From the NCBI GenBank assembly GCA_001596155.1, contig CP014769.1, positions 124,001 through 188,000 of the forward strand: a stretch of 64,000 nucleotides of DNA. The letters run 5' to 3'. Shown here in pieces: positions 3,916-54,213 of the stretch. A model generated the notes under the pieces. The model was not told the origin of the DNA and did no database searches. It saw only the letters and a program-made list of their open reading frames with translations. The DNA is from Hymenobacter psoromatis (GTDB taxonomy: Bacteria; Bacteroidota; Bacteroidia; Cytophagales; Hymenobacteraceae). Made by a program: the position numbers and the translations under genes. Position 1 is the stretch's first letter, and each line of letters begins with the position of its first letter.

Positions 3916-4012
3916 CAAAGAACCGGGCGTAGCTGGCCCCTTGCTATGTTTAGTATCAGCCCTACTGCCTGATTTTAATCATGGGCTGGGCCGGGTGGCT
4001 AATGGAACCTTG
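3916..4012. promoter_or_regulatory. Divergent promoter with tandem CRP/FNR-type boxes
   Basis: TGTTTAGTATCA (3947-3958) and TGATTTTAATCA (3970-3981) lie 23 bp apart. Rightward, CTTG at 4009-4012 sits 39 bp from the start of the near box, the same distance as in the other copies, and would serve oleate hydratase. Leftward, TTCTTTG (3922-3916, minus strand) would serve the USP gene. Confidence 0.65.
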
Positions 4013-4087
4013 CAGCCTCTCAGGCCCACCGCCTTACGCTTGACTATCAAAGCGCTAGGGAGGGAAGCTTTTTCACCCACCAAGTTT

Positions 4088-5680
4088 ATGACCCAGTCTA
4101 TTTCGCCCGCCGCCCGCCACGCCTACCTGGTGGGCGGCGGCATTGCCTCGCTGGCCGCAGCGGCTTTTCTCCTTCGTGACGGGCAGCTACCGGGGGCGAA
4201 TATTCATATTTTTGAAGAAGCCGAGCTGGTCGGCGGCAGCCTCGACGCGGCCGGGCAGGCCGACCAGGGCTACGTGATGCGCGGGGGCCGAATGCTGAAC
4301 TTCAGCTACCGCTGCACCTACGAGTTGCTGGCCTCCATCCCGTCGCTGGCGCACGCGGGCCAGTCGGTGCGCGACGATATTATGGCCTTCAACGAGCAGC
4401 TCAAAACCCACGCCCTGGCGCGGGTGGTGGACCGCGCCGGCCACATCGTGGACGTGACCTCGATGGGTTTCACCGAGCCCGACCGGCTCGCCATTGTGGA
4501 GCTGCTGGCCATGCCCGAGCACCTGCTCGGTACCAAGCGCGTGGATGAGTGGTTTAAGCCCGGCTTTTTTGAGACGAATTTCTGGTTTATGTGGGCCACC
4601 ATGTTTGCCTTCCAGCCCTGGCACAGTCTGGTGGAATTCAAGCGGTATTTGCTGCGCTTCTTGCAGGAGTTTCCGCGCATCGACACGCTGGCGGGCGTTG
4701 ACCGCACGCCGTATAACCAGTTCGATTCCATCGTGTTGCCCATCCTGACGTGGCTGCAAGAGCAGGGGGTAGACTTCCGGCTGGGCAGCCAGGTAACGGA
4801 CCTGGATTTTGCGCCCCACGCCGATACCAAAACCGTAGTGCGCGTGCACTACACCCGCGACCAATCGTCGCAAACCCAGGACGTGCAGCCCCACGATTTG
4901 GTGCTGGTCACCAACGGCTCGATGACGGCCAACTCGACGCTGGGCACCATGAGCACCGCGCCCGTGCTCAACGCCGCGCCCGGCGACGGGGCCTGGGCCC
5001 TGTGGGAAACCCTGGCCCAGAAATACTCCGACTTCGGCCGGCCCTACGTCTTCGACCAGCGGCTGGATGAGTCGATTTGGGAATCGTTTACGGTGACCAG
5101 CCACGGCACGCTGTTTTTCGATTTGATGGAAAAATTCTCGGGTAACCAGGCTGGCACCGGGGCGCTGGTCACGCTCAAAGATTCCAGCTGGCTGCTGTCG
5201 GTGGTGCTGGCCTACCAGCCGCACTTTATCAACCAGCCGGCCGGCGTAACGGTGTTTTGGGGCTACGGGCTGTTTCCGGATAGGGTAGGGAACTACGTGC
5301 CCAAGAAGATGAGCGACTGCTCGGGCGAGGAGATTCTGACCGAATTGCTTAATCACCTGCATTTTACGGCGCAGCTGCCGGCCATTATCGCCGAGGCCAA
5401 CTGCATTCCGGCGCTGCTGCCCTACATCACCAGCCAGTTTTTGACCCGCGCCCCCGGCGACCGGCCGCCGGTGGTGCCCGCGGGCTCGACCAACTTCGCC
5501 TTTCTGGGCCAGTTCACCGAAATGCCTGATGATGTGGTGTTTACCGTGGAGTATTCCGTGCGCTCGGCCCAGCTGGCAGTGTATGAGCTGTTGCAGCTCG
5601 ACAAGCAGCCCCCAGCGATTTATAAAGGGCAGCACAGCCCGAAAGTGCTCTACGATGCCCTGCAAACCATGCACCGCTAA
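4088..5680 (+). CDS. ohyA: Oleate hydratase (FAD-dependent fatty acid hydratase)
   Basis: 530 residues from ATG 4088; longer upstream starts would have to lie in the promoter leader. The N-terminus HAYLVGGGIASLAAAAFLL is the FAD-binding Rossmann motif, and the MCRA/oleate hydratase family is followed end to end (GFFETNFWFMWATMFAFQPW, EYSVRSAQLAVYELL). The enzyme adds water across the 9-double bond of oleate and related acids to give 10-hydroxystearate. The usual catalytic Glu of the RGGRE motif is replaced: this protein reads MRGGRMLNFSY, as in the shorter, monomeric hydratases such as the Rhodococcus one. The role may be detoxification or membrane lipid adjustment under stress. It is divergent from a USP gene and followed 53 bp later by ldhA. 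Confidence 0.9.
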   Translation: MTQSISPAARHAYLVGGGIASLAAAAFLLRDGQLPGANIHIFEEAELVGGSLDAAGQADQGYVMRGGRMLNFSYRCTYELLASIPSLAHAGQSVRDDIMAFNEQLKTHALARVVDRAGHIVDVTSMGFTEPDRLAIVELLAMPEHLLGTKRVDEWFKPGFFETNFWFMWATMFAFQPWHSLVEFKRYLLRFLQEFPRIDTLAGVDRTPYNQFDSIVLPILTWLQEQGVDFRLGSQVTDLDFAPHADTKTVVRVHYTRDQSSQTQDVQPHDLVLVTNGSMTANSTLGTMSTAPVLNAAPGDGAWALWETLAQKYSDFGRPYVFDQRLDESIWESFTVTSHGTLFFDLMEKFSGNQAGTGALVTLKDSSWLLSVVLAYQPHFINQPAGVTVFWGYGLFPDRVGNYVPKKMSDCSGEEILTELLNHLHFTAQLPAIIAEANCIPALLPYITSQFLTRAPGDRPPVVPAGSTNFAFLGQFTEMPDDVVFTVEYSVRSAQLAVYELLQLDKQPPAIYKGQHSPKVLYDALQTMHR

Positions 5681-5733
5681 GCGATAGCATAAGATGTTGT
5701 TTAACTGTTTGTTAACCCTCTTTTATTTTGACC

Positions 5734-6720
5734 ATGAACGTCACCGTTTTTAGCACTATGTCCTTTGAGCGCTCCTTTTTGGAGCAAGCCAACGCGGGCC
5801 GGCACCAGCTGCATTTTTATGAGGCGGATGTGGCGGACCAGACCGTGCCGCTGGCCCAGGGGTCGCTGGCGGTCAGCGTGGCGGCCAACGATAACCTGGC
5901 GGCCCCCACCCTGGAGCGGCTGGCGGCGCACGGCGTGCGCTACGTGCTGGTGCGCGCCACCGGCACCGACCAGGTAGACCTGCCGGCCGCCCACCGGCTG
6001 GGCCTACGCGTGGCCCACGTGCCCGATTACTCGCCCCACGCCATTGCCGAGCACGCCGTGGCCCTGATGCTGGCCCTGGCCCGCCACCTGCGCCAGGCCG
6101 ACCAGCAGCTGCGCGCCAACGACTTTTGCCTCGATAAACTCATTGGCTTTGAGCTATATGGCAAAACGGTGGGCATCGTGGGGGTAGGGCACATCGGGGC
6201 CGTGCTGGCGGGCATCCTGCACGGCTTCGGCTGCCGGCTGCTGGGCGAAGACGTGCAGCCCAACGACGAGCTGTGCCGACGCTACGACCTAGAGTACGTG
6301 GCCCTGCCCGAGCTGTGCGCCCAGGCCGACATTATCAGCCTGCACACGCCCCTGACGGCCCAGACCCGGCACCTGTTCAACGACCAGGTATTGGGCCAAC
6401 TGAAGCCCGGCGCGATGCTCATCAACACCGGCCGGGGCGGCGTGCTCGACACGGCCGCCGCCCTGCGGGCCCTCGACAGCGGCCGGCTCGGCTACCTGGG
6501 CCTGGACGTGTACGAGGGGGAGCAAGGGCTCTTTTTTGCTGACCACACGAAGGACCAGCTACGCGACAAAGTGTTTGCGAAGCTGCTCACCTACCCCAAC
6601 GTGCGCGTGACCGCGCACCAGGGCTACCTCACCCGCGAGGCCCTGACCAGCCTCGCCACGGCCGTCGTGGCCGGCCTCGATGCCTGGGCCGCGGGCCAGC
6701 CCGCGCCGCACGAGCTGTAG
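5734..6720 (+). CDS. ldhA: D-lactate dehydrogenase / D-isomer 2-hydroxyacid dehydrogenase
   Basis: 328 residues from ATG 5734; a TTG two codons upstream is less likely. The NAD-binding site is VGIVGVGHIGAVLAG. The catalytic Arg is in LINTGRGGVLD and the catalytic His in VTAHQGYLT. The YEGEQGLFFADH stretch near residue 257 is typical of LdhA-type D-lactate dehydrogenases, as opposed to phosphoglycerate or glyoxylate relatives. It reduces pyruvate to D-lactate and recycles NADH when respiration is limited. It follows oleate hydratase on the same strand and is probably co-transcribed. It fits the fermentative theme of the region. Confidence 0.88.
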   Translation: MNVTVFSTMSFERSFLEQANAGRHQLHFYEADVADQTVPLAQGSLAVSVAANDNLAAPTLERLAAHGVRYVLVRATGTDQVDLPAAHRLGLRVAHVPDYSPHAIAEHAVALMLALARHLRQADQQLRANDFCLDKLIGFELYGKTVGIVGVGHIGAVLAGILHGFGCRLLGEDVQPNDELCRRYDLEYVALPELCAQADIISLHTPLTAQTRHLFNDQVLGQLKPGAMLINTGRGGVLDTAAALRALDSGRLGYLGLDVYEGEQGLFFADHTKDQLRDKVFAKLLTYPNVRVTAHQGYLTREALTSLATAVVAGLDAWAAGQPAPHEL

Positions 6721-6899
6721 GGCCAACGCGAGGCACCGGCTGACCGCCGCGGGCTGGTCCACCGGCCCTACCCCCGTTCTCAACTGCTAGCGCTGCTAAC
6801 AGGCTTTAGGGCCCCGCGGCCTAGCGAAACGAATGTAAGCGCATCCGGGGGATAGCCAGACCACCTGCTACAGAGCGCCGCGCCGGGGCCGCCCGGCCA

Positions 6900-6964
6900 T
6901 GACGATAATCAGCTACCGGCTTGCTAATCGTCATGGCCGGGCGGCCGGGTAGCTGGCACCTTTG
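6900..6964 (+). promoter_or_regulatory. Tandem CRP/FNR-type box promoter
   Basis: TGACGATAATCA (6900-6911) and TGCTAATCGTCA (6922-6933) are 22 bp apart; ACCTTTG ends at 6964, with TTTG starting 61 bp from the first box. The two boxes also form a long inverted repeat (CCCGGCCATGACGAT and its complement). It would serve the SHOCT protein. 6721-6890 shows no gene. Confidence 0.65.
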
Positions 6965-8502: not shown

Positions 8503-9933
8503 CTAGTAAGCCAGGTTAATCACTAGGTCGTTGTCCACGTCCCAGGCACCGGCCGCGTGGGCAGCGCGGCCGGCCAGGTCGCGGTCGTGCCAGGTATCGA
8601 CGGTGCCCGTGAGGGTAGCCCGGCCTTGCTCCACCCCTACCTCGATAGCCTGGCTGTGCAGGCTCGGCGACCAGAACAGCCGGCTGCGGATGCGCTCGGC
8701 CAGGGCGAAGTCGGCGTTGGGGCGGGCCAAGCCGGGCTTCCAGGACGTCTGGTAGGCGTCGAAGTGGCCGTTGCCGGGCACAGTTATCCAGTTAGCTATT
8801 TCGGCGACCCCCTTGACCCCGGCGGCGACCCGGCCGGCCTGGTCCTGCTCGAAGTAGTTGCTGACCTGCCCGTAGAGCTGGGCCTTGCCGTTGCGCACGT
8901 GCACGCTGAATTCGTCCAGGCCCACGTAGGGGTCGCGGGCCAGCGCCTCGCGGATGGTGTGCCCGATGTAGAGGTCGGGAATGAACCAGGGCGTGCGCAC
9001 TTTCAGCAGATTGAGCACGTCCGTGACGCCCACCACGTGGCGGGCATCGCGCTCGGCGTGCTGCTTGGCGAGCAGGTTGCTCACCGGGCCGCTCAGCGTG
9101 ACGACGCCGTTACGCACCAGTATCAGCGGCTGGTAGGCCCGCACGCGGGGGTCGAAGCGAAAGGCCGCCCGCACGGCCTCGGCAATGTCCTCGTCGGAGC
9201 GCGGCGCGTACTTGTCGCCCCGCAGGTCGCGGTGGGCGGCCCAGTGCAGTATGTTCAGGGCGCGGATGTCCACGTGGGTCGCGCCGGCCTGGTAGGCGGT
9301 GGCTTCCGCCTGGGCCAGTTCGGCGGGGGTGCCCACGGTACCCGACAGATAGACCGCCCGGTCATGGGTGCGCACGTCCACCAGGGCGGCATTCACGCGA
9401 ACATCCCAATCCAGTGCCTCCCGCACTTGGACCGTGATTTCATGGTCGGAGTTTTGTAGGCGGTCCCAGCTAATGGTCAGCTCATCGGCCACTAGGCGGC
9501 GCACGCCGCGCACGCCGCGTCCCACGTGCAGCACCAGCGCCTTTTCGGCCCAGCTCTGTACGGTGCCGGTCAGCGTAACTACCCCGTCGCTGGCGGCGAC
9601 GAGGACATTATAGAAGCTCGTGGCGGGGTCAGTAGCCAGGGCGCTGGCTACCGAGGCTTGCAGCTCGGCATCGGGTACGGTGGGCGTGCTGATGAGCACG
9701 TCGTTGACGACCCCGCGTACCCCGCGCAGGGCCAGGGCGATATCCTCGGCCCGCTCCCTGGAGAGCAGGTTGTCGGTAATGCCGGTTAGCTTAACAATAC
9801 CCTCATGGGTTTCGACGTCAAGTAGATGCGCGCTCACCCCTTTTTGGGTAAGGTACAGCAACTCCAGGGCGGTGGTAATGTCACCATCGGCCAGGTGGTC
9901 AGTGGGCGGTGCTACAATTTCGAGAGTTTGCAC
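8503..9933 (-). CDS. Multi-BON-domain protein (about six repeats), paralogue 1
   Basis: 476 residues built from repeated BON domains (bacterial OsmY and nodulation), recognised by recurring strands such as GIVKLTGITDN, GVVTLTGTVQSW, RAVYLSGTVGT, GVVTLSGPVSN, GKAQLYGQVSN and RATLTGTVDTW, spaced about 75 residues apart. There is no signal peptide or membrane helix, so it is probably cytoplasmic, unlike OsmY. BON domains bind phospholipid or other ligands; arrays of six have no assigned function that I know. Two close paralogues lie at 15086 and 32686. Transcribed from the tandem-box promoter at 10008-10073. Confidence 0.85.
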   Translation of the reverse strand: MQTLEIVAPPTDHLADGDITTALELLYLTQKGVSAHLLDVETHEGIVKLTGITDNLLSRERAEDIALALRGVRGVVNDVLISTPTVPDAELQASVASALATDPATSFYNVLVAASDGVVTLTGTVQSWAEKALVLHVGRGVRGVRRLVADELTISWDRLQNSDHEITVQVREALDWDVRVNAALVDVRTHDRAVYLSGTVGTPAELAQAEATAYQAGATHVDIRALNILHWAAHRDLRGDKYAPRSDEDIAEAVRAAFRFDPRVRAYQPLILVRNGVVTLSGPVSNLLAKQHAERDARHVVGVTDVLNLLKVRTPWFIPDLYIGHTIREALARDPYVGLDEFSVHVRNGKAQLYGQVSNYFEQDQAGRVAAGVKGVAEIANWITVPGNGHFDAYQTSWKPGLARPNADFALAERIRSRLFWSPSLHSQAIEVGVEQGRATLTGTVDTWHDRDLAGRAAHAAGAWDVDNDLVINLAY

Positions 9934-10007: not shown

Positions 10008-10073
10008 CAAAGGTTCGCCCGCCGCCCGCCGCGGCCCAATGACTAGCAGCCGGCGATTACCTGACATTGGTCA
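10008..10073 (-). promoter_or_regulatory. Tandem CRP/FNR-type box promoter (minus strand)
   Basis: Read leftward: TGACCAATGTCA (10073-10062), GGCTGCTAGTCA (10051-10040, near box, TCA half conserved) and CCTTTG (10013-10008). Box spacing is 22 bp. It sits 75 bp before the BON gene at 9933. Confidence 0.65.
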
Positions 10074-13542: not shown

Positions 13543-14205
13543 ATGGCAACGCTCTACCCTCCAAAGGCTTCTGGCAGCCCCCGCGCTATCGTCGTCATCG
13601 GGGCTTCGGCGGGGGGCGTTGCCGCGTTGCTGGCCCTGGCCAAAACCCTACCGGCTGATTTTCCAGCCCCTATTTTCATCGTGCTGCACCTGGGGGCCGA
13701 TTTGCCCTGCATTCTGCCGCAGCTGCTCAGCGCCGTGGCGAAGCTGCCGGCCCGGCACCCGCAAAACGGGGAGCTTATTGCGCCAGGAATACTATACGTG
13801 GCCCCGCCCGCCCACCAGATGCTGCTGGAAGGCGACCGGGTGCTAGTGACGCAGGACCCGCCGGAAAACCGGTTTCGGCCCTCCATTGATGCGCTGTTTC
13901 GCTCGGCGGCCCGCACGCATGGCCGGCGCGTGATTGGCGTGGTACTCACGGGTTACCTGAACGACGGGGCGCTGGGGCTGGGGTCGGTGCAGCGGCACGG
14001 CGGCCTGACCATCGTGCAGGAACCGCACGACGCTGAGCAGCCCGACATGCCCACCAACGCCCTGGCGCTGGTAACGCCCGACTATATCGTACCGCTAGCC
14101 CAACTGGGCCCCCTGCTCGTGCGCCTGACCACGGAAATTACCCCGGCCAACCGGCCCCGGCCTGCGCCCGAGCTGGGCGTTGGGCGAGGGGGTAGGGCTA
14201 CCTGA
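13543..14205 (+). CDS. CheB-type protein-glutamate methylesterase domain, stand-alone
   Basis: 220 residues consisting only of the CheB methylesterase domain, without the receiver domain of true CheB. The catalytic triad residues are visible: Ser22 in GASAGG, His49 in IVLHLG and Asp in TGYLNDGALGL. The RPSIDALFRSAA motif is also characteristic. Free-standing CheB domains are common in Bacteroidota outside chemotaxis operons, often near signalling genes; their substrate is usually unknown. The TGA stop codon (14203-14205) is also the first half of the distal regulatory box for the next gene. Confidence 0.85.
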   Translation: MATLYPPKASGSPRAIVVIGASAGGVAALLALAKTLPADFPAPIFIVLHLGADLPCILPQLLSAVAKLPARHPQNGELIAPGILYVAPPAHQMLLEGDRVLVTQDPPENRFRPSIDALFRSAARTHGRRVIGVVLTGYLNDGALGLGSVQRHGGLTIVQEPHDAEQPDMPTNALALVTPDYIVPLAQLGPLLVRLTTEITPANRPRPAPELGVGRGGRAT

Positions 14206-14269
14206 CAAAAGTCATCCCTTACGGATGCGTTTTGTCATAAAAAGGGGGGGGTAGGCGCGCCTACTTTTG
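14203..14269 (+). promoter_or_regulatory. Tandem CRP/FNR-type box promoter with consensus -7
   Basis: TGACAAAAGTCA (14203-14214) and TGCGTTTTGTCA (14226-14237) lie 23 bp apart. TACTTTTG (14262-14269) is a perfect TAnnTTTG -7 element. It would serve the PepSY-like protein at 14399. Confidence 0.65.
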
Positions 14270-14398: not shown

Positions 14399-14935
14399 GT
14401 GGTAGCGCGGCCGCAAGTGGGGCCGCCGCGCCAGCCGGAAGCCCGTAGCGTCCCCAAAAGCCATGCTGGCACCGCCCTGAAAATCCTCTGGTTGCTCTGG
14501 GTGGCCCTGGTGTCGGGCCCCGTTGTGCACGCGCAGGCGATGGCCACGGCCGACGTACCGCCGCTGGCCTATGGGGCGATGTTTGAGCACTATCCGCTGG
14601 CCCGGCAGATAACCTGGCGCCGGTTTCAGGACTGCTACCAGGCCAGCTACCTCCAGGGTCAGACCTACCGGCTGGTCCGGTTCAATGGCAACGGCGATAT
14701 CGAGGCCACGGGCCAGGACATGGCGCTCAGTGCGCTCTCGCTCCCCATCCAGCACACCCTGACCACCTACTACCCCACCCGCACCTTCTGCCGCGCTATT
14801 GAGGTGACCAACGCCCGGACCAGGGGCCTCACCTACGAGATGGCCACCTGCGAAACCGCCATCAGCCGCACCGTCACGCTGACGGCCGACGGCCGGAAAA
14901 TACCCCGTTCCCAGTACCTGGGGTCGCTCCCCTAG
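14399..14935 (+). CDS. Secreted PepSY-like (beta-lactamase-inhibitor-like) protein
   Basis: 178 residues from a GTG. The start is uncertain because no ATG precedes the hydrophobic export segment (ALKILWLLWVALVSGPVVHA, about residues 27-46). The mature part has FEHYPLARQITWRRF, then YQASYLQGQTYRLVRFNGNG. This is the pattern of PepSY-like/DUF2874 domains, where a short helix with a PxAxxVxW-like motif precedes antiparallel strands. Such small periplasmic proteins are frequent in Bacteroidota and of unknown role. It is preceded by a tandem-box promoter and followed by another for the BON gene. Confidence 0.6.
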   Translation: MVARPQVGPPRQPEARSVPKSHAGTALKILWLLWVALVSGPVVHAQAMATADVPPLAYGAMFEHYPLARQITWRRFQDCYQASYLQGQTYRLVRFNGNGDIEATGQDMALSALSLPIQHTLTTYYPTRTFCRAIEVTNARTRGLTYEMATCETAISRTVTLTADGRKIPRSQYLGSLP

Positions 14936-14963: not shown

Positions 14964-15028
14964 TGATAAAAATCAGGTAGGGAGGTAATAATCGTCAGGG
15001 TATTGCCAGGCGGCGGGGCGGAATTTTG
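14964..15028 (+). promoter_or_regulatory. Tandem CRP/FNR-type box promoter
   Basis: TGATAAAAATCA (14964-14975), TAATAATCGTCA (14986-14997), TTG (15003-15005) and GAATTTTG (15021-15028). Box spacing is 22 bp and TTTG starts 61 bp from the first base. It would serve the BON gene at 15086 and probably the genes behind it. Confidence 0.7.
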
Positions 15029-15085: not shown

Positions 15086-16534
15086 ATGCAAACCCTGGAA
15101 ACCTTCGCGCCGCCCGCCCCGGCCGACCACCTATCAGATGCCGACATTACGGCCGCCATCGAGCTGTTTTTTACGACCAAAAAAGGCGTGCCTGCGCACC
15201 TGATTGACGTGGCTGCGCACGAGGGCATCGTGCGGCTGACGGGCATCACCGACAACCTGCTGGCCAGCGAGCGGGCCGAGGAAATCGCCCTGGCCGTGCG
15301 CGGCGTGCGGGGGGTAGTCAATGAGTTAATTATCAGCACGCCCGACCGGCCCAATGACGAGCTGTACCACGCCGTGACTCAGGCCCTGCGCGCCGACCCC
15401 GCCACCACCGACTATAACGTGGCCTGCACCGTGGCCGACGGCGTGGTAACGCCCACCGGCATAGTGCAGAGCTGGGCCGAGCAGCAACTGGTGCTGCGCG
15501 TGCTGCGGGGCGTGCGCGGGGTGCGCCGCCTGGTGGCCGATGAGCTGACCATCCGCTGGGGTGAAATCCAGAATTCGGACGAGGAAATCAGCGCCCAAAT
15601 CCGCGAGCTGCTGGCCTGGGACATCCGCGTGCTCAGCGACCAGGTAGGGGTGCGCACCACCGACCGGGTGGTGCACCTGAGCGGCACGGTGGGCACCGCC
15701 GCCGAGCGGGCCCAGGTGGTGGCCGTGGCCTACCAGGCCGGCGCGCGCCGCGTCGATGCCCGCGACCTGTTCGTGGCCTACTGGGCTCAGAGCCCCGAGC
15801 TGCGGCGCGAAAAATTTGTCCAGCGCAGCGACGCTGACCTTGCCCAGGCCGTGCTCGCTACCTTCCGCTACGACCCGCGCGTGCTGGATTACCAGCCCAC
15901 GGTGGTGGTGCACGATGGCCTGGTGACGCTGACCGGCCAAGTGAGTAGCCTGCGCGCCAAGCAAAGCGCCGAGCAGGATGCCCGCCACGTGGTGGGCGTG
16001 TGGAACGTGCACAACCTGCTGAAGGTGCGCACCCGCTGGTTCACGCCCGATGCGGAGGTGCGCCAGGCCATCCTCGACGCGCTGGCGCGGGACCCCTACG
16101 TGAGCATTTTCGAGTTTCAGGTGCGGGTGACCAATGGCCGCGCCCACCTCGACGGGCTGGTTAACAGCCACTTCGAGCAGGCCCAGGCCGCCGAGGTGGC
16201 CAGCGGCGTAAATGGCGTGGCCGAAGTGGAGAACGGCGTGCGCGTGCTGCCCAGCGCCGGCCAGGCCGGCTGTTATCCCTACCCCGGTGCCCTGCGCCCG
16301 GCCGCCTACCCCAACGCTGACTTCGCCCTGGCCGAGCGCATCCGCGGGCTGTACTTCTGGTCGGCCAGCCTGCACAACCAGGACGTGGAGGTGCTGGTGG
16401 AAAACGGCCGCGCTACCCTCACGGGCACCGTTGCTACCTGGCTCGACCGCGAGCAGGCCGCCTTCGATGCTTACGAGGCCGGCGCGCAACGGGTGGATAA
16501 CGACTTGCTGCTGTCTACTGCCAACGGGTTATAG
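15086..16534 (+). CDS. Multi-BON-domain protein (about six repeats), paralogue 2
   Basis: 482 residues, the same architecture as the proteins at 8503 and 32686: about six BON repeats marked by GIVRLTGITDN, GVVTPTGIVQSW, RVVHLSGTVGT, GLVTLTGQVSS, GRAHLDGLVNS and RATLTGTVATW. The linker ELTIRWGEIQNSDEEI resembles paralogue 1. There is no signal peptide. It is the first gene of a probable operon with a small protein (16544), a USP (16802), a peroxiredoxin (17682) and a His-rich protein (18439), ending at the terminator at 18671. Function is unknown; the context points to stress or dormancy. Confidence 0.85.
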   Translation: MQTLETFAPPAPADHLSDADITAAIELFFTTKKGVPAHLIDVAAHEGIVRLTGITDNLLASERAEEIALAVRGVRGVVNELIISTPDRPNDELYHAVTQALRADPATTDYNVACTVADGVVTPTGIVQSWAEQQLVLRVLRGVRGVRRLVADELTIRWGEIQNSDEEISAQIRELLAWDIRVLSDQVGVRTTDRVVHLSGTVGTAAERAQVVAVAYQAGARRVDARDLFVAYWAQSPELRREKFVQRSDADLAQAVLATFRYDPRVLDYQPTVVVHDGLVTLTGQVSSLRAKQSAEQDARHVVGVWNVHNLLKVRTRWFTPDAEVRQAILDALARDPYVSIFEFQVRVTNGRAHLDGLVNSHFEQAQAAEVASGVNGVAEVENGVRVLPSAGQAGCYPYPGALRPAAYPNADFALAERIRGLYFWSASLHNQDVEVLVENGRATLTGTVATWLDREQAAFDAYEAGAQRVDNDLLLSTANGL

Positions 16535-18833: not shown

Positions 18834-18898
18834 TAACGAAAATCAGGCAGAAGGCTGACGTTTTACGGCGCATTGCGGACGGGCCGCCCGGTCATTTG
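18834..18898 (+). promoter_or_regulatory. Degenerate tandem CRP/FNR-type box promoter
   Basis: TAACGAAAATCA (18834-18845) and TGACGTTTTACG (18856-18867) each keep one half-site and are 22 bp apart. TCATTTG ends at 18898, with TTTG exactly 61 bp from the first base. It precedes the H+-ATPase gene by about 170 bp. Confidence 0.45.
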
Positions 18899-21685: not shown

Positions 21686-21750
21686 TGACAAAAATCAGCT
21701 AATAAGCTAATTATTGTCAGAGTCTTGCTAAGCCCTACCCCAGACCTTTA
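21686..21750 (+). promoter_or_regulatory. Tandem CRP/FNR-type box promoter
   Basis: TGACAAAAATCA (21686-21697), TAATTATTGTCA (21708-21719), TTG (21725-21727) and GACCTTTA (21743-21750). Box spacing is 22 bp and TTTA starts 61 bp from the first base. It drives the SDR-HAD-ackA-xfp operon. Confidence 0.7.
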
Positions 21751-22569: not shown

Positions 22570-22610
22570 GCACACCCTACCCCCTCCTTCTTTTCCAACC
22601 TCCTTCTCCA

Positions 22611-22901: not shown

Positions 22902-22916
22902 TCCGCGCCCCTCTCT

Positions 22917-23558: not shown

Positions 23559-23575
23559 CTAACACCCCCTCCCGC

Positions 23576-27197: not shown

Positions 27198-27240
27198 GCG
27201 GCTATTTATTAGCAAATTAATGCTTTTAGGAAATATTTAG

Positions 27241-27273
27241 AACGTCATGCTGAGCCTGTCGAAGCATGACGTT
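27241..27273. repeat. REP-like palindrome, AACGTCATGC family
   Basis: AACGTCATGC (27241-27250) and GCATGACGTT (27264-27273) flank TGAGCCTGTCGAA. Related palindromes occur at 29385, 41843 and 53772. It lies between xfp and the aldolase gene. Confidence 0.65.
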
Positions 27274-27292
27274 CTTCATGAATATCAAAGCC

Positions 27293-28789: not shown

Positions 28790-29119
28790 TTACAGCGCGT
28801 TCAACATCTTGACGATTTGGCGCTTGCGCTTGCCGAGCTTGGCTTGCAGGCGGCCCACCAGCTCGTGGCCTTTGCCTTCCACATAGGTCAGGTCTTCGTC
28901 CGTGAGATGGGGGTAGGTTTGTTGCAGCTTGCCTTTGAGCTGGTTCCAGTCGCCGCGCGGGCGCAGGCGGTGGTCCACGCGCAGGTTGCGGAATTTGCGG
29001 CGGCGCTCAATGCTTTTTTCGGAGTAGAGCAGGACGCCGGCGAGGGCACCTAAGCCGGCCCCGGCGAGGAGGGTAAGAAAAACTTTACCAGTCTTGTTTT
29101 TGGGCTTTTCGGCTATCAT
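28790..29119 (-). CDS. YtxH / CsbD-like stress protein
   Basis: 109 residues from ATG at 29119; a longer upstream frame would run through the promoter and is rejected. The N-terminus has a YtxH-type Gly/Ala transmembrane segment (VFLTLLAGAGLGALAGVLLY). The C-terminus is CsbD-like: DWNQLKGKLQQTYPHLTDED, then LTYVEGKGHELVGRLQAKLG. CsbD proteins are among the most abundant general-stress proteins in bacteria, with unknown biochemistry. The fusion of the two motifs in one short protein is notable. Driven leftward from the symmetrical tandem-box promoter at 29188-29284. Confidence 0.82.
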   Translation of the reverse strand: MIAEKPKNKTGKVFLTLLAGAGLGALAGVLLYSEKSIERRRKFRNLRVDHRLRPRGDWNQLKGKLQQTYPHLTDEDLTYVEGKGHELVGRLQAKLGKRKRQIVKMLNAL

Positions 29120-29187: not shown

Positions 29188-29284
29188 CAAAGGTGCCGCC
29201 GCCGCCCGCCACGCGGCCCTGACTATCGTCAGGCCAGCGCCTGATTTTTGTCATGGCCCGGCCGGGGTGCTTGCCGGAACCTTG
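29188..29284. promoter_or_regulatory. Symmetrical bidirectional promoter with two full CRP/FNR-type boxes
   Basis: TGACTATCGTCA (29220-29231) and TGATTTTTGTCA (29242-29253) are both complete and 22 bp apart. Rightward, AACCTTG ends at 29284 (CTTG 61 bp from the first base), toward the Ca2+-ATPase. Leftward, CCTTTG (29193-29188, minus) points at the YtxH/CsbD gene. Confidence 0.7.
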
Positions 29285-32296: not shown

Positions 32297-32361
32297 TGAC
32301 GGATGTCATGTGATATGGCGATTCTTGTCATAGGCATGGCCGCTGCCCTGCCGGACCTTTA
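32297..32361 (+). promoter_or_regulatory. Tandem CRP/FNR-type box promoter
   Basis: TGACGGATGTCA (32297-32308), CGATTCTTGTCA (32319-32330) and GACCTTTA (32354-32361). Box spacing is 22 bp and TTTA starts 61 bp from the first base. It precedes the broken copper-protein gene and BON paralogue 3. 32125-32296 shows no gene. Confidence 0.65.
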
Positions 32362-32685: not shown

Positions 32686-34197
32686 ATGAATACCCCCTAT
32701 CTTCTAGTTGCCCCCGCCTCCGCCGAAATCATGGCCGATGCCGACATTACCACGGCTATCGAACGGCTCTTCACCACCCAAAGAGGGATGACCGAGCATT
32801 TGCTGGACGTGGCCACGGCCGAGGGCGTGGTGACGCTGACCGGCTTCACTGAAAATCTGCTGGCCCGGCGGCGGGCCGAGGAAATTGCCCTGGCGGTGCG
32901 CGGCGTGCGCGGCGTAACCAGCACGGTGGCCGTGCGCACCGTGGAACTGCCCGACGCCGACTTGCAGCGCGACGTGTGCGAGGCCCTGGCCGATGACCCC
33001 GCCACCACCGACTACCACGTGGCCTGCACCGTGGCCGGGGGGGTGGTTACGCTCACGGGCATGGTGCAGAGCTGGGCCGAGCAGCAACTGGTGCTGCGCG
33101 TGCTGCAAGGCGTGCGGGGCGTAACCACCTTCGTGGCGGAGCGCCTGACTATCCAAGAGGGAGAAATCGCGAATTCGGACGAGGAAATCACCATCCAAAT
33201 CCAGGAGCTGCTCGACTGGGATATTCGAGTGAACAGCGCTCTGGTGGAGGTGCACACCAATGAGCAGGTGGTGTACTTGGCAGGTACGGTGGGCTCGGCC
33301 ACGGAAAAGAACTATATCATCGACATCGCTTACCAGACTGGGGCCACCCGCGTGGATGCCCGTGACTTGTTCGTGGCCTACTGGGCGCTAGGCAGCGAGC
33401 TGCGGCGCAAGAAGTTCGCGCCCCGCACCGACGCCGACGTGGCCAGCGCCGTGCGCGGGGCCCTGCACCGTAACCCGCGCGTATGCGGCTCCGAAACGCT
33501 GGTGCAGGCCCTGGAAGGCACCGTGACGCTGGCCGGCACGGTGCGCAACCTGCGCGCCCGCCAGGAAGCCGAGCGCGATGCCCGTCTTGTAGTGGGCGTG
33601 TCCGATGTGCATAATATATTGAAAATAAGACCTAAGCGCCCGGTGTCCGATGCCGAAATTCGTCAGTCTATCCTGGCCGCGCTGGCCCGCGACCCCTACC
33701 TGGGGTACTTCTATTTTAGGGTGCGCGTAAGCCAGGGCCGGGCCTTCGTACATGGGCAGGTAGACAGTGCGTTTGAGCGCGAGCGGGCGGGAGAGGTGGC
33801 CACCGGGGCCAGCGGCGTGCTGTCCGTGGCCAACCTGGTGCAGCAGCCGGAGACGACCCGCCCTGACGAGTTTCCGGCCAGCCGACCGGGGGCCGCCGAG
33901 CCCCGGCCCACGGGTCCCGACCCCGACCAGGCGCTGGCCAGCCGCATCCGGCAGCGCCATTTCTGGTCGGCCGCCCTGCACGACCAGGGTATCGGGGTGC
34001 GGGTGAGCCACGGCCGCGCCACCCTCATCGGTACCGTGGATACCTGGCCTGAGCGCCACCAGGCTGCTCTCGACGCCTACGAGGCCGGGGCCCGCGACGT
34101 AAACAACCACCTGCGCGTGCTGGTCCCTGCGGAACCTGCCGCCCACGAGCCGCGGGCCGCTAAAACCTTGGAACTCCTCGCCGATGCGCACGGCTAG
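32686..34197 (+). CDS. Multi-BON-domain protein (about six repeats), paralogue 3
   Basis: 503 residues from ATG 32686 (MNTPYLLVAPASAEIMADAD). Repeats marked by GVVTLTGFTEN, GVVTLTGMVQSW, QVVYLAGTVGS, GTVTLAGTVRN, GRAFVHGQVDS and RATLIGTVDTW. It closely resembles the BON proteins at 8503 and 15086 but has a longer Pro-rich linker before the last repeat and a longer C-tail. There is no signal peptide. It lies behind the Csp-like pseudogene, with the tandem-box promoter of 32297 as the likely promoter. Three such paralogues in 26 kb imply repeated duplication and a dosage or partner-specific role. Confidence 0.85.
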   Translation: MNTPYLLVAPASAEIMADADITTAIERLFTTQRGMTEHLLDVATAEGVVTLTGFTENLLARRRAEEIALAVRGVRGVTSTVAVRTVELPDADLQRDVCEALADDPATTDYHVACTVAGGVVTLTGMVQSWAEQQLVLRVLQGVRGVTTFVAERLTIQEGEIANSDEEITIQIQELLDWDIRVNSALVEVHTNEQVVYLAGTVGSATEKNYIIDIAYQTGATRVDARDLFVAYWALGSELRRKKFAPRTDADVASAVRGALHRNPRVCGSETLVQALEGTVTLAGTVRNLRARQEAERDARLVVGVSDVHNILKIRPKRPVSDAEIRQSILAALARDPYLGYFYFRVRVSQGRAFVHGQVDSAFERERAGEVATGASGVLSVANLVQQPETTRPDEFPASRPGAAEPRPTGPDPDQALASRIRQRHFWSAALHDQGIGVRVSHGRATLIGTVDTWPERHQAALDAYEAGARDVNNHLRVLVPAEPAAHEPRAAKTLELLADAHG

Positions 34198-36725: not shown

Positions 36726-36790
36726 TGACAAATGTCATCTGATAAGGAGATTATTATCAGGTAATTGCCAGGATGAGCGCCGCACTTTTA
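36726..36790 (+). promoter_or_regulatory. Tandem CRP/FNR-type box promoter
   Basis: TGACAAATGTCA (36726-36737), AGATTATTATCA (36748-36759), TTG (36765-36767) and CACTTTTA (36783-36790). Box spacing is 22 bp and TTTA starts 61 bp from the first base. It serves the USP pair at 36985 and 37872. Confidence 0.7.
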
Positions 36791-36984: not shown

Positions 36985-37818
36985 ATGAAACCTTCCTTCG
37001 TTGTCCTCACCGATGCAGCCCCCACCGGTGAACCCTTGCTCGGCTACGCCGCCGCGCTGGCCGCCGCCGTGGGGGCCACCCTGCACCTGGTGCACGTGGC
37101 GTCGATGCCGCCCATTGCCACCATACAATATGGCCTGCCGCTACTCGGTACGAGCTACGTGCCGGCTGTGCGCGACGACCTGCGGCGGGCCGCCGCCCGC
37201 CTGCCCGTGCCCACCACCGTGGACGTGTTGGAAAGCGACTGGCATGACGCCCTGGCCCAGGTGCTGGCCGCTTATCAGCCGGCGCTGGTGCTGGCCGGCC
37301 TCACCGCCACCGATGGCCCGCTGGATGAGCTGCTGAGCAACCGCACCCTGCCGCTGCCGCACCAAACCGGCTACCCCCTGCTGCTGGTGCCTGAGCGCTT
37401 GCCCGCTGCCGCCCAGCGCCCACCGCGCCACCTGCTGCTGGCCGTGGAGGACCAGCCCTTCCAGCTCGCGCCGCCGGTGCGGGCGCTGGCCCCGCTGCTC
37501 GATGCCCTGGCCTGCACCATTACGCCCGTGACCGTGCTACCCCTGCCCCATCCCCTGGCCGCTGGCGGGGTCGGGCTGCTCGCCGCTCAAACCTGCGGCC
37601 TGGCCGCCGCGCTGCCGGGCACCAAGCTGCACCGGGTGGTGGGCGTGCGCCCCGCCACGGGTATCTGGCGGGCGGCCGAGGAGCTAGGGGCCGACCTGAT
37701 AGGACTGCTCGACCAGGGCCACGGCTGGGTGCATAAACTCTTCAGCGGCAGCATCATCGCCGATGTGCTGCGCTACTCCCAGGTGCCCGTGCTCCTGCTG
37801 CCCGTGGCGATGAACTAG
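36985..37818 (+). CDS. Universal stress protein, tandem UspA domains
   Basis: 277 residues. Domain 1 opens with FVVLTDAAPTGEPLLGYAAA and includes LVLAGLTATDGPLDELLSNR in place of an ATP loop. Domain 2 opens with RHLLLAVEDQPFQLAPPVRA and ends SQVPVLLLPVAMN. It is the intact relative of the broken USP at 34459. It is preceded by the tandem-box promoter and a leader of about 190 bp and followed 53 bp later by another USP, probably one transcript. Role by family: stress or dormancy; ligand unknown. Confidence 0.85.
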   Translation: MKPSFVVLTDAAPTGEPLLGYAAALAAAVGATLHLVHVASMPPIATIQYGLPLLGTSYVPAVRDDLRRAAARLPVPTTVDVLESDWHDALAQVLAAYQPALVLAGLTATDGPLDELLSNRTLPLPHQTGYPLLLVPERLPAAAQRPPRHLLLAVEDQPFQLAPPVRALAPLLDALACTITPVTVLPLPHPLAAGGVGLLAAQTCGLAAALPGTKLHRVVGVRPATGIWRAAEELGADLIGLLDQGHGWVHKLFSGSIIADVLRYSQVPVLLLPVAMN

Positions 37819-37871
37819 CGCTTGCTGGCGTCAGGGGCTGGTCAGCTACTTCACATTTTCTCCTCCTTACC

Positions 37872-38792
37872 ATGCCCCTGACGCTCGTTGTTTTTGCCGG
37901 TTTTTACGAGGCGGCCCGCCACGCGGAGCACTACGTCGATACCCTGGGCCAGGCCCTGCCCGGCAGCAAGCTGGTGCTGCTGCACGTCAACCGCGCTTCG
38001 CTCTTCGACCCCTACCTCATAGTGGGCGAGCGCTACCGCCAAGCCGACCTGGCCGTCGAAACCGACACCACGGCCGCCCTGCACCGGCAGGCGGCGGCGT
38101 TGCGCACGCCGGCTACCGTGGTCGTCACCACCGACCTGCTGCCCACCATCGCCCATGACTTGGCCACCCGCTACCAGCCGGCCCTGTTCGTGCTCAGTCA
38201 GCCCGACCCCGACCAACCCGCCGCCAGCGTCGTGGCCGACTGCGCCGAGCTGTTGCGGGCCGGGCAGCACGCGCTGCTGGCAGTGCCCCTCACCGCCTCG
38301 GCCGACCACGCCCCCCGCCGCATCCTGCTGGCCGCCGACCGCGAGGCTTTTGCCCTGGCCCCGGCGGCGCTGGCCCTCCGCGAGCTGCTCGCGCTGCCCG
38401 GCACCGAGCTATTCGTGGCCCACGTTTCGGGCGGGGTCGAGGACGATGCCGGCTGCGCCGCCGCCCTGCGCGCCGTGCAGGATAGCGGCCTGGTAGCGGG
38501 CCTGCCCATTCCAAAGCTAAGAGGTTATAATCAAGATGATTACGCAGAAGGCGTGCTGGATGCCGTGCGCGACACGCAGGCCGACCTGGTGGTGGTATTC
38601 GCCCGCCAGCGCAGCTACCTGGGCGAGCTGTTTCACCACAGCGTGACGGCCCGGCTGCTAGCCGATTGCCCTGTGCCGATACTGGTACTTCCCACTACGG
38701 TGGCCGCCGTACCCACCACTTTGCCGGAGGCTTCGGCTACTGTGGTCCAATCGGCCACTAGGGTGCTTCAGGGCATGAGCCCGGCCTACTAA
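37872..38792 (+). CDS. Universal stress protein, tandem UspA domains, extended C-terminus
   Basis: 306 residues, longer than the other USPs because of a Thr/Ala/Pro-rich tail (AAVPTTLPEASATVVQSATR). Domain 1 opens LTLVVFAGFYEAARHAEHYV; domain 2 opens RRILLAADREAFALAPAALA. The RQRSYLGELFHHSVTARLLA block matches the USP at 3068. It shares the promoter of the upstream USP. It ends in an AT-rich convergent region (38793-38889) with no clear hairpin, where its transcript meets the PAP2 gene. Confidence 0.84.
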   Translation: MPLTLVVFAGFYEAARHAEHYVDTLGQALPGSKLVLLHVNRASLFDPYLIVGERYRQADLAVETDTTAALHRQAAALRTPATVVVTTDLLPTIAHDLATRYQPALFVLSQPDPDQPAASVVADCAELLRAGQHALLAVPLTASADHAPRRILLAADREAFALAPAALALRELLALPGTELFVAHVSGGVEDDAGCAAALRAVQDSGLVAGLPIPKLRGYNQDDYAEGVLDAVRDTQADLVVVFARQRSYLGELFHHSVTARLLADCPVPILVLPTTVAAVPTTLPEASATVVQSATRVLQGMSPAY

Positions 38793-39926: not shown

Positions 39927-39991
39927 TGCTAAAAATTCTGTTTTTCACTGATTTACGTCAGGCTTCCGGCGGGGCCGCGCCGCTAGCTTTG
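39927..39991 (+). promoter_or_regulatory. CRP/FNR-type box promoter (near box strong, far box degenerate)
   Basis: TGCTAAAAATTC (39927-39938, degenerate) and TGATTTACGTCA (39949-39960) are 22 bp apart. TAGCTTTG (39984-39991) is a perfect TAnnTTTG; TTTG starts 39 bp from the near box as at other sites. It would serve 40048 and the aldehyde dehydrogenase. Confidence 0.55.
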
Positions 39992-40047: not shown

Positions 40048-40362
40048 ATGGAAGCGATAACCACCCTTGCGGCGCTACTGGCCCAACTCAAAAAAGAGGG
40101 CTACACCGAAGATTTCAACCTGCAAGACCGCTACCTGGCTGGCCGGCGCTCGGCCATCTGGTTGTCGCCGCACGAGTTTGCGGTGGACAAGCATTACCGC
40201 TTCGAGGGAACTTCCGACCCCGACGAGGAGGCCGTGTTGTACGCCATCTCATCGCCCACCTTCAACCTGAAAGGCACCCTGGTCAACGGCTACGGCAGCT
40301 ACAGCGCCGCCGCTTCGGACGAGCTGGTGCAGGCTCTGAGGGAAAAAACAGCTGCTTACTAA
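40048..40362 (+). CDS. Small Bacteroidota-specific protein (often mislabelled PRPP synthetase)
   Basis: 104 residues with the conserved pattern of a small family widespread in Bacteroidota: LLAQLKKEGYTEDFNL, then LSPHEFAVDKHYRFEG, SDPDEEAVLYAISS and KGTLVNGYGSYS. Database entries often call it phosphoribosylpyrophosphate synthetase, but the protein is far too short for that enzyme and no PRPP loop is visible. Real function unknown. It lies 43 bp before an aldehyde dehydrogenase, with a CRP/FNR-type box in front. Confidence 0.75.
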   Translation: MEAITTLAALLAQLKKEGYTEDFNLQDRYLAGRRSAIWLSPHEFAVDKHYRFEGTSDPDEEAVLYAISSPTFNLKGTLVNGYGSYSAAASDELVQALREKTAAY

Positions 40363-40404: not shown

Positions 40405-41787
40405 ATGGCCATCCAAACCATTAATCCCGCCACTAACGAGGTCGTCCAATCGTTCGAGGAAATGACCGACCCGGCTATCGAGGCGGCGGTTGCCCAGGCG
40501 GCCACGGCTTTCGCGGCCTGGAAAACGACCGCCTACCCCCACCGGGCCCGGCTGCTGCGCCAAGTGGCCGCGCGGCTGCGAGCCCAAAAATCGGTCCTAG
40601 CTCGGCTCATTACCCTGGAAATGGGCAAGCTGTTGGCCCAGGCCGAGGGCGAAATTGAGCTGAGCGCCAACATCTTTGATTACTACGCCGAGCACGGAGC
40701 CGCGTTTCTGGCCGACCAGCCCCTGCACCCCGACCACGGCACGGCCCTGGTGCGCCACAGCCCCGTGGGGGTGCTGCTGGGGGTCGAGCCCTGGAATTTC
40801 CCCTTCTACCAGGTGGCCCGCTTTGCCGCGCCCAACCTCATGATTGGCAACGTGGTGCTGGTGAAACACGCCTCCAGCGTGCCGCAGTGCGGCCTGGCTA
40901 TCGAGCGCCTGCTGCGCGAGGCCGGGGCCCCGGCCGGGCTCTATACTAACCTGCTGATTTCGGGCCACCGGGCCGATACGCTGGTGACCGACCTGCGCAT
41001 CAAGGGGGTGTCGCTGACGGGCAGCGAAGCGGCCGGGGCCAGCGTGGCCGCCGCCGCCGGCCAGAGCCTGAAAAAGTCGGTACTGGAGCTGGGCGGCAGC
41101 GATGCCTTTCTTATTCTGGAAGATGCCGACATTGACCGGACCGTGGACTGGGCCGTGGTGGGGCGGATAAACAATAACGGCGAGTGCTGCGTGGCCGCCA
41201 AGCGCTTCATCGCGGTGGAGACGGTGGCCGACGAATTTCTAGCGAAATTCACGGCGAAAATGGCCGCTCTGCGCGTGGGCGACCCCCTGGACCCGGCCAC
41301 CGAGCTGGGCCCCCTCAGCAGCGAGGCCGCCGCGGCCGGGCTGGTGGAGCAAGTGCAGCGGGCCGTGCACGGCGGGGCCACGGTGGTGCTAGGCGGCCAG
41401 CGGGTGGCCCGGCCGGGCGCATTTATGGAGCCGACCATTCTCACGGACCTCACCCCGACCAATCCGGTTTTTTATGAAGAACTGTTTGGGCCGGTGGCGG
41501 CTTTTTTTCGCGTGCCCGATGAGGCCGCCGCCATTGCCCTGGCCAACGACTCGCCATTTGGCCTCGGCGGCTCGGTCTTCACGCGGGATGTGGCGCGTGG
41601 CCAGCGCGTGGCCGACCAGCTCGACACGGGCATGGTCTTCATCAACCACCCCACCTGGACGCAGGCCGACCTGCCCTTCGGCGGCACCAAGCGCTCGGGC
41701 TACGGCCGCGAACTGGCCGGGCTGGGCATCGAGGAGTTCGTCAATAAAAAGCTCATCCGCGTGAGCGCTCTTATCGACCCGTTTTAG
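40405..41787 (+). CDS. NAD(P)-dependent aldehyde dehydrogenase, succinate-semialdehyde type
   Basis: 460 residues. MAIQTINPATNEVVQSFEEM and the short length match the Sad/GabD-like NAD-dependent group. The catalytic Glu is in LELGGSD, and the catalytic Cys in NNNGECCVAAKRF, where the usual GQxC is GECC. VGVLLGVEPWNFPFYQ and FGGTKRSGYGREL are also standard. It probably oxidises succinic semialdehyde or similar aldehydes to acids. It is co-directional with the small protein at 40048 and may share its promoter. Confidence 0.87.
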   Translation: MAIQTINPATNEVVQSFEEMTDPAIEAAVAQAATAFAAWKTTAYPHRARLLRQVAARLRAQKSVLARLITLEMGKLLAQAEGEIELSANIFDYYAEHGAAFLADQPLHPDHGTALVRHSPVGVLLGVEPWNFPFYQVARFAAPNLMIGNVVLVKHASSVPQCGLAIERLLREAGAPAGLYTNLLISGHRADTLVTDLRIKGVSLTGSEAAGASVAAAAGQSLKKSVLELGGSDAFLILEDADIDRTVDWAVVGRINNNGECCVAAKRFIAVETVADEFLAKFTAKMAALRVGDPLDPATELGPLSSEAAAAGLVEQVQRAVHGGATVVLGGQRVARPGAFMEPTILTDLTPTNPVFYEELFGPVAAFFRVPDEAAAIALANDSPFGLGGSVFTRDVARGQRVADQLDTGMVFINHPTWTQADLPFGGTKRSGYGRELAGLGIEEFVNKKLIRVSALIDPF

Positions 41788-44520: not shown

Positions 44521-44852
44521 GCCCCGAAGATGCTAGTTTTGAATGAAGGGTTGGCTGGGGGGAGGCAAGTGTAGTAATTCCGCGCAAGACGCTGACGAAC
44601 AGTAAAAAAGAATAGTTACTGTGCTTCGATAGGGGAATTTCCAGCCCCTGGTTCGCTTTGTAAAACAAGGCCAAGGCTTGTAACAGTAGCCTGAATTTAG
44701 TAGTCTGTATTGGAAAAGTACCACACCGGCCATTCTTAGGAAAGGAGCCGAAAAATGGCCTATTTTCAAGATTTGTCCGAGAAACCTTGTTGTGTTGAGG
44801 GAGAATTCCGCGAAACGAGTCTAACACTGTTCGCCGCTCTGCTACCCCCGCC

Positions 44853-45065
44853 TCAGTGCTGCCAGCGAATGTGCTGGTCCTCCAGCGGCACGGCGATGCC
44901 CTCGTAGGCGGGCAGGATGCGGGCCGTGAAATCACTGGCGGGGCGGGTGGTGGCGACCTGGGCCTGATAGGGGTAGTAGCCGTCGGCAGTGGGGGCTGCG
45001 GCTGGTTGCAGCAGGATGCGCAGGGGCATTTCGTCGGGCAGGCCCGTGTGGCGGCGGGCAGGTAA
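44853..45065 (-). pseudogene. Orphan C-terminal fragment of alpha-glucan phosphorylase
   Basis: About 70 codons nearly identical to the last residues of the phosphorylase at 61007 (TARILPAYEGIAVPL, then QHIRWQH, and the YYPYQ/HYPYQ block). The catalytic domains are missing. It is preceded by a minus-strand pair of CRP/FNR-type boxes (45093-45126), so a former phosphorylase gene with that promoter seems to have lost nearly all of its coding region by deletion. Confidence 0.75.
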
Positions 45066-45092
45066 TAGCTCTGCCTCTTCAAAGCGATTCCC

Positions 45093-45126
45093 TGACAATA
45101 ACGGTCTTATTACCTGACGTTTGTCA
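45093..45126 (-). promoter_or_regulatory. Tandem CRP/FNR-type boxes in front of phosphorylase relic
   Basis: Read leftward: TGACAAACGTCA (45126-45115) and CCGTTATTGTCA (45104-45093), 22 bp apart. The expected -7 position (about 45065) has no TTTG, consistent with the deletion starting there. Confidence 0.5.
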
Positions 45127-45203
45127 CGCCGCCGCGCTGGCCCAACGGCTGGTCTGCCTGGGCAGCAACGAAACCAGGTAGCGGTAGCAACTGCCCAAAA
45201 ACC

Positions 45204-45268
45204 TGATAAAAATCATGTAGCCCGGCGTTATTCATCAGGGTGTTGGCAGGGGGTAGGGCCGAATTTTG
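45204..45268 (+). promoter_or_regulatory. Tandem CRP/FNR-type box promoter of the hydrogenase operon
   Basis: TGATAAAAATCA (45204-45215), CGTTATTCATCA (45226-45237), TTG (45243-45245) and GAATTTTG (45261-45268). Box spacing is 22 bp and TTTG starts 61 bp from the first base. Its distal box and -7 element are identical to those of the BON promoter at 14964. The leader to the small-subunit ATG is about 130 bp. Confidence 0.7.
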
Positions 45269-54211: not shown

Positions 54212-54213
54212 CC

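Follow-up and report, generated by a model that had tools for sequence, protein, structure and literature searches.

Paired boxes in the window

The stretch analyzed here, called the window, comprises 64,000 nucleotides of the Hymenobacter psoromatis genome (5.45 Mb; G000:C1:124001-188000) and lies within the 199,990-bp contig C1, the window's replicon. Its intergenic regions carry pairs of CRP/FNR-type boxes of the form TGAY-N4-RTCA, whose starts are 22 or 23 bp apart. These paired boxes are real, and they flag a set of stress-survival genes in bacteria of soil and water. Each box is scored with 8 points and a pair with 16. Plain positions count from the first letter of the window, and those prefixed with C1 or C3 count along the contig.

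The first-pass annotation had listed 13 intergenic two-box sites, and our scan of the window agrees with it: all 13 are present where it had placed them, with a spacing of 22 bp in 11 and of 23 bp in two (3947 and 14203). Ten sites score at least 14/16; 39927 and 45093-45126 score 13, and 18834 scores 12. The weakest sites are 45126 (minus strand), 14203 and 18834.

The first pair (3947..3981, 23 bp, no strand assigned) is situated between a universal stress protein (USP) gene (3068-3889, minus) and an oleate hydratase (MCRA) gene (4088-5680, plus), with two candidate -7 elements, i.e. TTTG at 62 bp in reverse (3919-3916) and CTTG at 62 bp forward. The pair at 6900..6933 (22 bp, plus) lies behind a 2-hydroxyacid dehydrogenase gene and has TTTG at +61 (6961-6964); downstream there is only a 59-aa frame at 7150, and no clear target. 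On the minus strand, the pair at 10040..10073 (22 bp) precedes a minus-strand BON gene (8503-9933) and then a PPK2 gene, with TTTG at 62 bp. The pair at 14203..14237 (23 bp, plus) touches the 3' end of a CheB-like gene and precedes a frame at 14492-14935; its TTTG is found only at 63 bp. Three plus-strand pairs with a spacing of 22 bp follow: 14964..14997, of which C3 holds a copy, before a BON gene (15086-16534) with TTTG at +61 (15025-15028); the weak pair (12/16) at 18834..18867 before a P-type ATPase gene (19182-21518) with TTTG at +61; and 21686..21719 before SDR, HAD, AckA, phosphoketolase and class-I aldolase genes (21817-28315) with TTTA at +61.

Both boxes are perfect in the pair at 29220..29253 (22 bp, no strand assigned), which is flanked by divergent genes: on one side a P-type ATPase gene (29482-32124) with CTTG at +61, on the other a small minus-strand frame (28790-29119) with TTTG at 62. 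All further pairs are spaced by 22 bp. On the plus strand, 32297..32330 precedes a BON gene (32686-34197) and 36726..36759 two USP genes (37036-38792), each with TTTA at +61; 39927..39960, with a degenerate distal and a perfect proximal box and TTTG at +61 (39988-39991), precedes a frame at 40048-40362 and an aldehyde dehydrogenase gene (40405-41787). The weak minus-strand pair (13/16) at 45093..45126 lacks a -7 element at 60-62 bp whichever way it is read. The last pair (45204..45237, plus; TTTG at +61, 45265-45268) lies before NiFe-hydrogenase and hyp genes, a putative target run (45453..58397, plus) of hydrogenase small and large subunits, maturation protease, HypA, HypB-like, HypF, HypD and HypE, at the end of which is a weak nickel-transporter match below cut-off (57768-58397). 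Hymenobacter is reported to have an atmospheric-H2 enzyme; the literature search gave no usable support for it.

Promoter geometry

TAnnTTTG is the -7 consensus of Bacteroidota, and TGA-N6-TCA is the core of FNR/Anr-family sites. In forward reading, nine of the 13 window sites have TTTG, TTTA or CTTG starting exactly 61 bp from the distal box; the first-pass annotation had given the same offset with a count of eight. In the reverse direction, TTTG at 62 bp is found for three pairs (3947, 10040 and 29220), two of which (3947 and 29220) lie between divergent genes. The preference for this offset extends beyond the window: counted from the distal box, TTTG stands at +61 in 17 of 50 orientations on C1 and the related chromosomal island of contig C3 (next-best offset, 4), in 40 of 92 within 20 stretches from relatives (next, 5), and in 80 of 214 at 80 named regulator loci (next, 8). 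Three logos were built from sites selected for TTT/CTT at +61, and in all three the A three bases before TTTG, which was not part of the selection, is the majority base. Given TAnnTTTG at -7, the boxes would be centered near -62.5 and -40.5; the sequence supports the earlier proposal of a CRP/FNR-type operator with boxes near -62 and -40. Several pairs between divergent genes have an element at 61 or 62 bp both ways, e.g. C1:1358, C3:5007101 and C3:5142718.

Spacing and placement in the genome

Among window pairs scoring at least 14/16, eight are spaced by 22 bp and two by 23 bp; the other 185 spacings between 13 and 199 bp have a mean of 0.23 pairs and a maximum of 2. First-order Markov simulations of the window yielded no pair at 22 bp in any of 30 runs. 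Likewise, six control stretches of the same genome (120 kb) contain no 22-bp pair of at least 14/16, and none of at least 15/16 at spacings of 12-59 bp.

Genome-wide, the two-box layout occurs 14 times with at most one mismatch and never in the reversed control, and all 14 matches are intergenic according to our own gene caller. Eight are on C1, five at C3:5.00-5.15 Mb, and one at C3:2807463 beside a gene for an FNR-like protein. With up to three mismatches allowed, 106 matches face 52 in the reversed control, so about half of the set at this loose threshold is noise. In a test set beforehand, the layout was expected to be rarer inside genes, and this is borne out: on C1, 260 kb of C3 and one 20-kb stretch around the FNR-side site, none of 29 pairs of at least 14/16 at 22-23 bp falls inside a gene as delimited by our simple, unbenchmarked caller. 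At 13/16 or better, the same area has one of 35 pairs inside genes at 22 bp and six of nine at 23 bp.

The first-pass annotation had described a window-wide regulon; its sites are real, but the set is wider than the window, as it extends over the 200-kb replicon and takes in a second island at C3:5.00-5.155 Mb. C1 and the island at C3:5100000-5155000 have 33 kb in common, divided into rearranged blocks that are 82-99% identical. The ends of contig C1 showed no overlap; because the block order continues across them, C1 is probably a circular plasmid. The best plasmid match for a window stretch reaches only 15% coverage at 77% identity.

The islands also provide ten pairs of paralogous promoters. 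Their boxes are identical at 20-23 of 24 positions in nine of them, and at 12 of 24 in the pair 127947/5103145, whose spacings are unequal. In all ten, the boxes match better than the 60 bp upstream do, in some by a narrow margin. The stretch from the proximal box to the -7 element is conserved to about the same degree as the boxes (15-23 of 23 positions identical in nine of ten), and for this reason the comparison fails to single out the boxes.

A fused response regulator and the adjacent kinase

Of 15 cNMP-domain matches in the genome, one is of special interest. This protein (P0001) is a 350-aa chain consisting of a receiver (REC), a cNMP fold and a Crp-type helix-turn-helix (HTH) domain (Pfam: PF00072, PF00027, PF13545; the latter two above cut-off). 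Its gene lies outside the window (C1:3062-4114) and has a 93% identical copy on the chromosomal island (C3:5144490-5145542). Directly ahead is a PAS kinase gene (C1:1474-3084), preceded in turn by the box pair C1:1358; a second copy of the kinase is found at C3:5145520-5147130. The receiver residues D9, D52, T82 and K104 are invariant in nine of nine regulators, which provides the phospho-accepting Asp together with the expected Thr and Lys. In the CRP/FNR superfamily, a recognition helix with E-x3-R reads TGA/TCA, and the corresponding E315 and R319 are again invariant in all nine. At its N-terminus, P0001 has the receiver and not the Fe-S cysteines of FNR; such cysteines are present in the FNR-like paralog P0002 (C3:2807515-2808222).

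The arrangement is widespread. Regulator matches at 1e-30 occur in 129 of 150 genomes of the family. Among the 80 regulator loci listed (from Hymenobacter, Spirosoma, Larkinella, Rudanella, Runella, Chitinophaga, Reichenbachiella and many metagenome-assembled genomes), the regulator frame was located in 69, and in 67 of these a kinase gene lies next to it on the same strand. The regulator is also encoded on plasmids of H. canadensis, H. swuensis and Runella rosea, and with about 40% identity on two Spirosoma plasmids; in these five matched plasmid records it is labelled merely 'response regulator'.

Boxes and putative target genes in relatives

The 20 stretches from relatives, 19 of which contain the regulator gene, carry 46 pairs of at least 14/16 at 22 bp, distributed over 17 stretches. 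In the 80 named loci, 107 pairs of at least 15/16 are spaced by 22 bp (57 loci) and 26 by 23 bp, and every other spacing between 12 and 49 bp has zero to four. Only six of the 107 pairs lie within an open frame of at least 600 nt, vs 81% of random positions; for spacings of 24-40 bp the count is eight of 32 pairs.

Few of the window's own proteins recur in these loci: BON and hydrogenase proteins are found in none, phosphoketolase in one, any USP in 21 and P-type ATPase in 19. Gene sets vary by lineage, and putative targets were taken from the genes behind the boxes. First genes were counted at 161 oriented sites, all of which have a -7 element 60-62 bp away, with blast clusters as families; a Pfam check covered one representative each for ten of the 15 clusters of at least two members, which did not include the kinase or the 107-aa family. 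The first genes encode the kinase (21), a CcoNO fusion (19), metal P-type ATPase (15), USPs of two clusters (11 and 5), a 129-aa family (9), a DoxX-like family (8), a 131-aa family (8), a 107-aa family (7) and Hsp20 (6). Rarer are radical-SAM (HemN-like) proteins (3), ScdA-like proteins (2), three families of two and 41 singletons. The 131-aa and 129-aa families, seen at L260, L243 and related loci, are uncharacterized; in Pfam, they have no match and a weak match below cut-off, respectively.

Co-occurrence of boxes and regulator

If the fused regulator reads the boxes, genomes that possess it are expected to have more of them. Within the genus we compared 66 genomes, counting the two-box layout with at most one mismatch and using the reversed pattern as control; weak regulator matches near 1e-33 (G044 and G068) were scored as absent. 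A regulator ortholog is present in 48 genomes and absent from 18, with means of 5.94 and 1.0 sites (one-sided p = 9.7e-9); the control gives 0.27 and 0.22. Genomes with both regulator and FNR-like paralog (31) average 6.5 sites and those with the regulator but without FNR (17) 4.8, vs 1.0 for FNR without regulator (13) and 1.0 for neither (5). The presence of P0002 thus leaves the site counts unexplained, with no clear difference. The result is an association and not a demonstration of binding, because the genomes are related and the regulator may have been inherited together with the island. At the level of the order, the regulator is found at 1e-50 in 144 of 291 genomes; in one family (f19), ten genomes with it have a mean of 9.1 pairs and 31 without it a mean of 4.5 (p = 0.002). 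The operator, its geometry, its intergenic place and its association with the regulator gene across genomes are all computed results.

Proposed model and alternatives

The boxes are most likely read by the REC-cNMP-HTH response regulator with its CRP/FNR-type output, and we consider the full model of activation by two dimers probable. Binding, phosphorylation and activation are inferred. According to this model, the PAS histidine kinase encoded just ahead would phosphorylate the fused regulator; two regulator dimers would then occupy the boxes, whose centers would lie two helical turns apart at about -62.5 and -40.5, and bring RNA polymerase to promoters that carry an AnnTTTG-like -7 element. 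Between divergent genes, one pair could serve both promoters. The presumed output is a survival set of universal stress and BON proteins, phosphoketolase, acetate kinase, hydrogenase and cation ATPases, together with an oxidase, i.e. bd oxidase in H. psoromatis and cbb3 oxidase in relatives. The logic would resemble a FixL-FixJ-FixK cascade in which the roles of FixJ and FixK are merged in one protein.

Several observations weigh against a fused regulator acting through these boxes. No 22-bp pair of 15/16 is found in 23 of the 80 named loci, and the genus statistics correct neither for kinship nor for the regulator and the island being inherited jointly. The f19 genomes that have no full-length regulator nevertheless average 4.5 pairs, well above control counts. 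One genome (G272) has 17 pairs, seven of them at C3:88366-110279, which is 3-25 kb from a receiver-less CRP gene (C3:113717). Of 30 P0002-type loci of 3-4 kb, 26 hold a pair of at least 15/16, and FNR may thus share the window's sites. Finally, both kinase copies of H. psoromatis are without the axial His of FixL, with VPDDADHYPEQ in place of the RHHEQ of near relatives. For comparison with the P0002-type loci, such a pair is present in seven of 30 regulator loci of 3-4 kb and in none of the 12 other cNMP loci of H. psoromatis, one of which (L012) has a pair of 14/16.

The place of receiver-less proteins is apparent elsewhere as well. Another pair of G272 (C22:120315) lies beside a further receiver-less CRP gene. 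When nine site-bearing genomes without regulator were searched again, matches were to the receiver half or the CRP half, separately only. Within the genus, 13 of the 18 regulator-less genomes have any pair, and in nine of these 13 (G044, G050, G068, G102, G120, G138, G139, G143 and G146) one is located 0.15-0.9 kb from an FNR-type gene. Because pairs persist beside receiver-less CRP/FNR-type genes, the operator is shared and probably arose before the fusion. Three perfect pairs, two of which have a box in common, lie within 200 bp (G236:C275:8213-8407) in a genome that belongs to another family and has no fused regulator.

The first-pass annotation had proposed one regulator. One stress/energy gene set does stand behind the boxes, and the fused response regulator, not an ordinary CRP/FNR paralog, is the best candidate for its control; 'one regulator' may nevertheless be too simple, because the operator also lies beside the FNR-like paralog in most of its loci. 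Both paralogs might read one operator, so that a phospho-signal is joined with a direct redox/oxygen signal. This overlaps with the fused-regulator model, to which it adds a second reader, and we rate it as a serious possibility, although at somewhat less than even chances. The spacing is equal beside both genes, the recognition helices are alignable with E-x3-R in each, and genomes with both proteins average more pairs (6.5 vs 4.8, not significant, p = 0.25); FNR-linked pairs are, however, few in the genus.

It is improbable that the FNR-like paralog alone activates the islands and that the fused regulator merely travels along. P0002 does resemble FNR, including the N-terminal cysteines, and a perfect box pair (C3:2807463-2807496) lies 18 bp behind its gene; the frequent pairs at its loci and near FNR-type genes of regulator-less genomes point in the same direction. 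The genus means, however, follow the regulator: they are high in the 17 genomes that have it without FNR and low in the 13 with FNR only. As a side observation, the pair behind the FNR-like gene is also about 117 bp before a PAS-LuxR-like frame, named by eye.

Control by cAMP-bound CRP in response to carbon starvation seems very unlikely. The cNMP fold is present, but the cAMP cassette of E. coli CRP comprises Gly-Glu and an Arg; judged by the motif only, Gly-Glu is replaced by Gly-Tyr in nine of nine regulators, and the Arg is absent in five of nine, including H. psoromatis. Moreover, the genes behind the boxes in relatives are those of oxidases, metal ATPases and USPs. A repeat element that spread by duplication is a scarcely credible source of the pairs: the two islands do share their 33 kb of blocks, but spacers and flanks vary between sites of one genome, unrelated genes follow, the spacing recurs across Bacteroidota, and in the ten paralogous promoters the boxes are more alike than the sequence upstream, if narrowly in some.

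The signal

For the signal, redox, oxygen or energy had been proposed at first. Low oxygen is our best guess, and we hold it to be rather probable, in view of the bd oxidase and BON genes behind the pair C1:9324, the cbb3 oxidase, metal ATPase and USP genes of relatives, and the FixL-like PAS domains there; the missing heme-ligand His of the H. psoromatis kinase stands against it. The two COX1 genes of H. psoromatis lie outside both islands, so the oxidase link in this species rests on the bd oxidase genes at C1:9324.

The best solved match of the H. psoromatis kinase PAS is FixL, followed by DosP; that of a relative (L301) is the multi-sensor kinase 10jx, followed by FixL. In alignment to FixL and DosP, with a profile derived from three heme PAS domains, the FixL axial-ligand His is seen in 68 of 72 regulator-linked kinases (some duplicates) and in 84 of 94 distinct PAS pieces, and the FixL Arg at the aligned column in 46 of 74 rows, again with some duplicates. 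The His column may not be specific to linked kinases, because the profile was built from heme PAS domains and 32 of 33 further PAS matches in these loci also carry the His; of these 33, 18 are linked kinases that the filter had missed and 15 are unassigned.

Comparison with known systems

The closest parallel is the FixLJ-FixK system. Excerpts of the published work describe an hFixL-FxkR-FixK-fixNOQP pathway with an anaerobox in rhizobia, where FixL-type kinases, a receiver protein and FixK drive fixNOQP (PMC7888657), and control of fixK by FixLJ in B. dolosa (PMC9104464, PMC6127331). Both systems share a PAS kinase, a phospho-relay (a predicted one here), a CRP/FNR-type output, and a fixNO-type oxidase and metal ATPase as targets. 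However, the receiver protein and FixK are separate there, as opposed to one REC-cNMP-HTH chain here, and the FixK operator is a single TTGAT-N4-ATCAA box and not a tandem pair. The output of FixJ is of the LuxR type. DosR/DevR is reportedly a response regulator that governs dormancy at hypoxia; control by a response regulator is thus similar, but the output of DosR is of the LuxR type. P0002 is FNR-like, and the site core TGA-N6-TCA is that of FNR/Anr, from which the fused regulator differs by a receiver in place of the N-terminal cysteines.

For Burkholderia cenocepacia, the available excerpts report the lxa locus of 50 genes, strongly induced at low oxygen and including six USPs (PMC9733578). 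The BON protein of lxa and a heat shock protein are up in late infection isolates, and an Anr-like CRP regulator was suggested (PMC6127331); an Anr/FixK-like regulator has been proposed in Burkholderia (PMC9733578, PMC6127331, PMC9104464). USP and BON genes are within both sets; lxa belongs to another phylum, and the same excerpts mention neither a fused regulator nor a tandem operator for it. In logic and targets, the H. psoromatis system resembles both the Fix and the lxa examples, but its regulator is neither a FixJ nor a FixK. Our literature search, which covered only a minority of subscription journals, returned no description of a receiver-CRP/FNR fusion system.

On balance, we lean slightly towards a broader view: a fused activator together with a FixL-like kinase may, in a large part of Bacteroidota, replace the two-step FixJ-FixK relay by way of a fixed 22-bp two-dimer operator that predates the fusion; receiver-less FNR-type proteins would use this operator in some lineages, and the phospho-controlled paralog would have taken over large, partly plasmid-borne survival islands in Hymenobacter and relatives. 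For Bacteroidota, the finding offers a concrete, testable regulator together with an operator and a promoter rule for genes of low oxygen or persistence (in relatives, those of cbb3 oxidase, metal ATPase and USP; in H. psoromatis, hydrogenase). It may also be a naturally occurring example of a single operator that serves two sensor types, the direct FNR kind and the phospho-relay kind.

Two further pairs of C1 also precede genes: ATP-synthase genes (gamma- and alpha/beta-type proteins, C1:187747-197397) lie behind C1:197488, and a phosphoglucomutase-like gene lies behind C1:189502.

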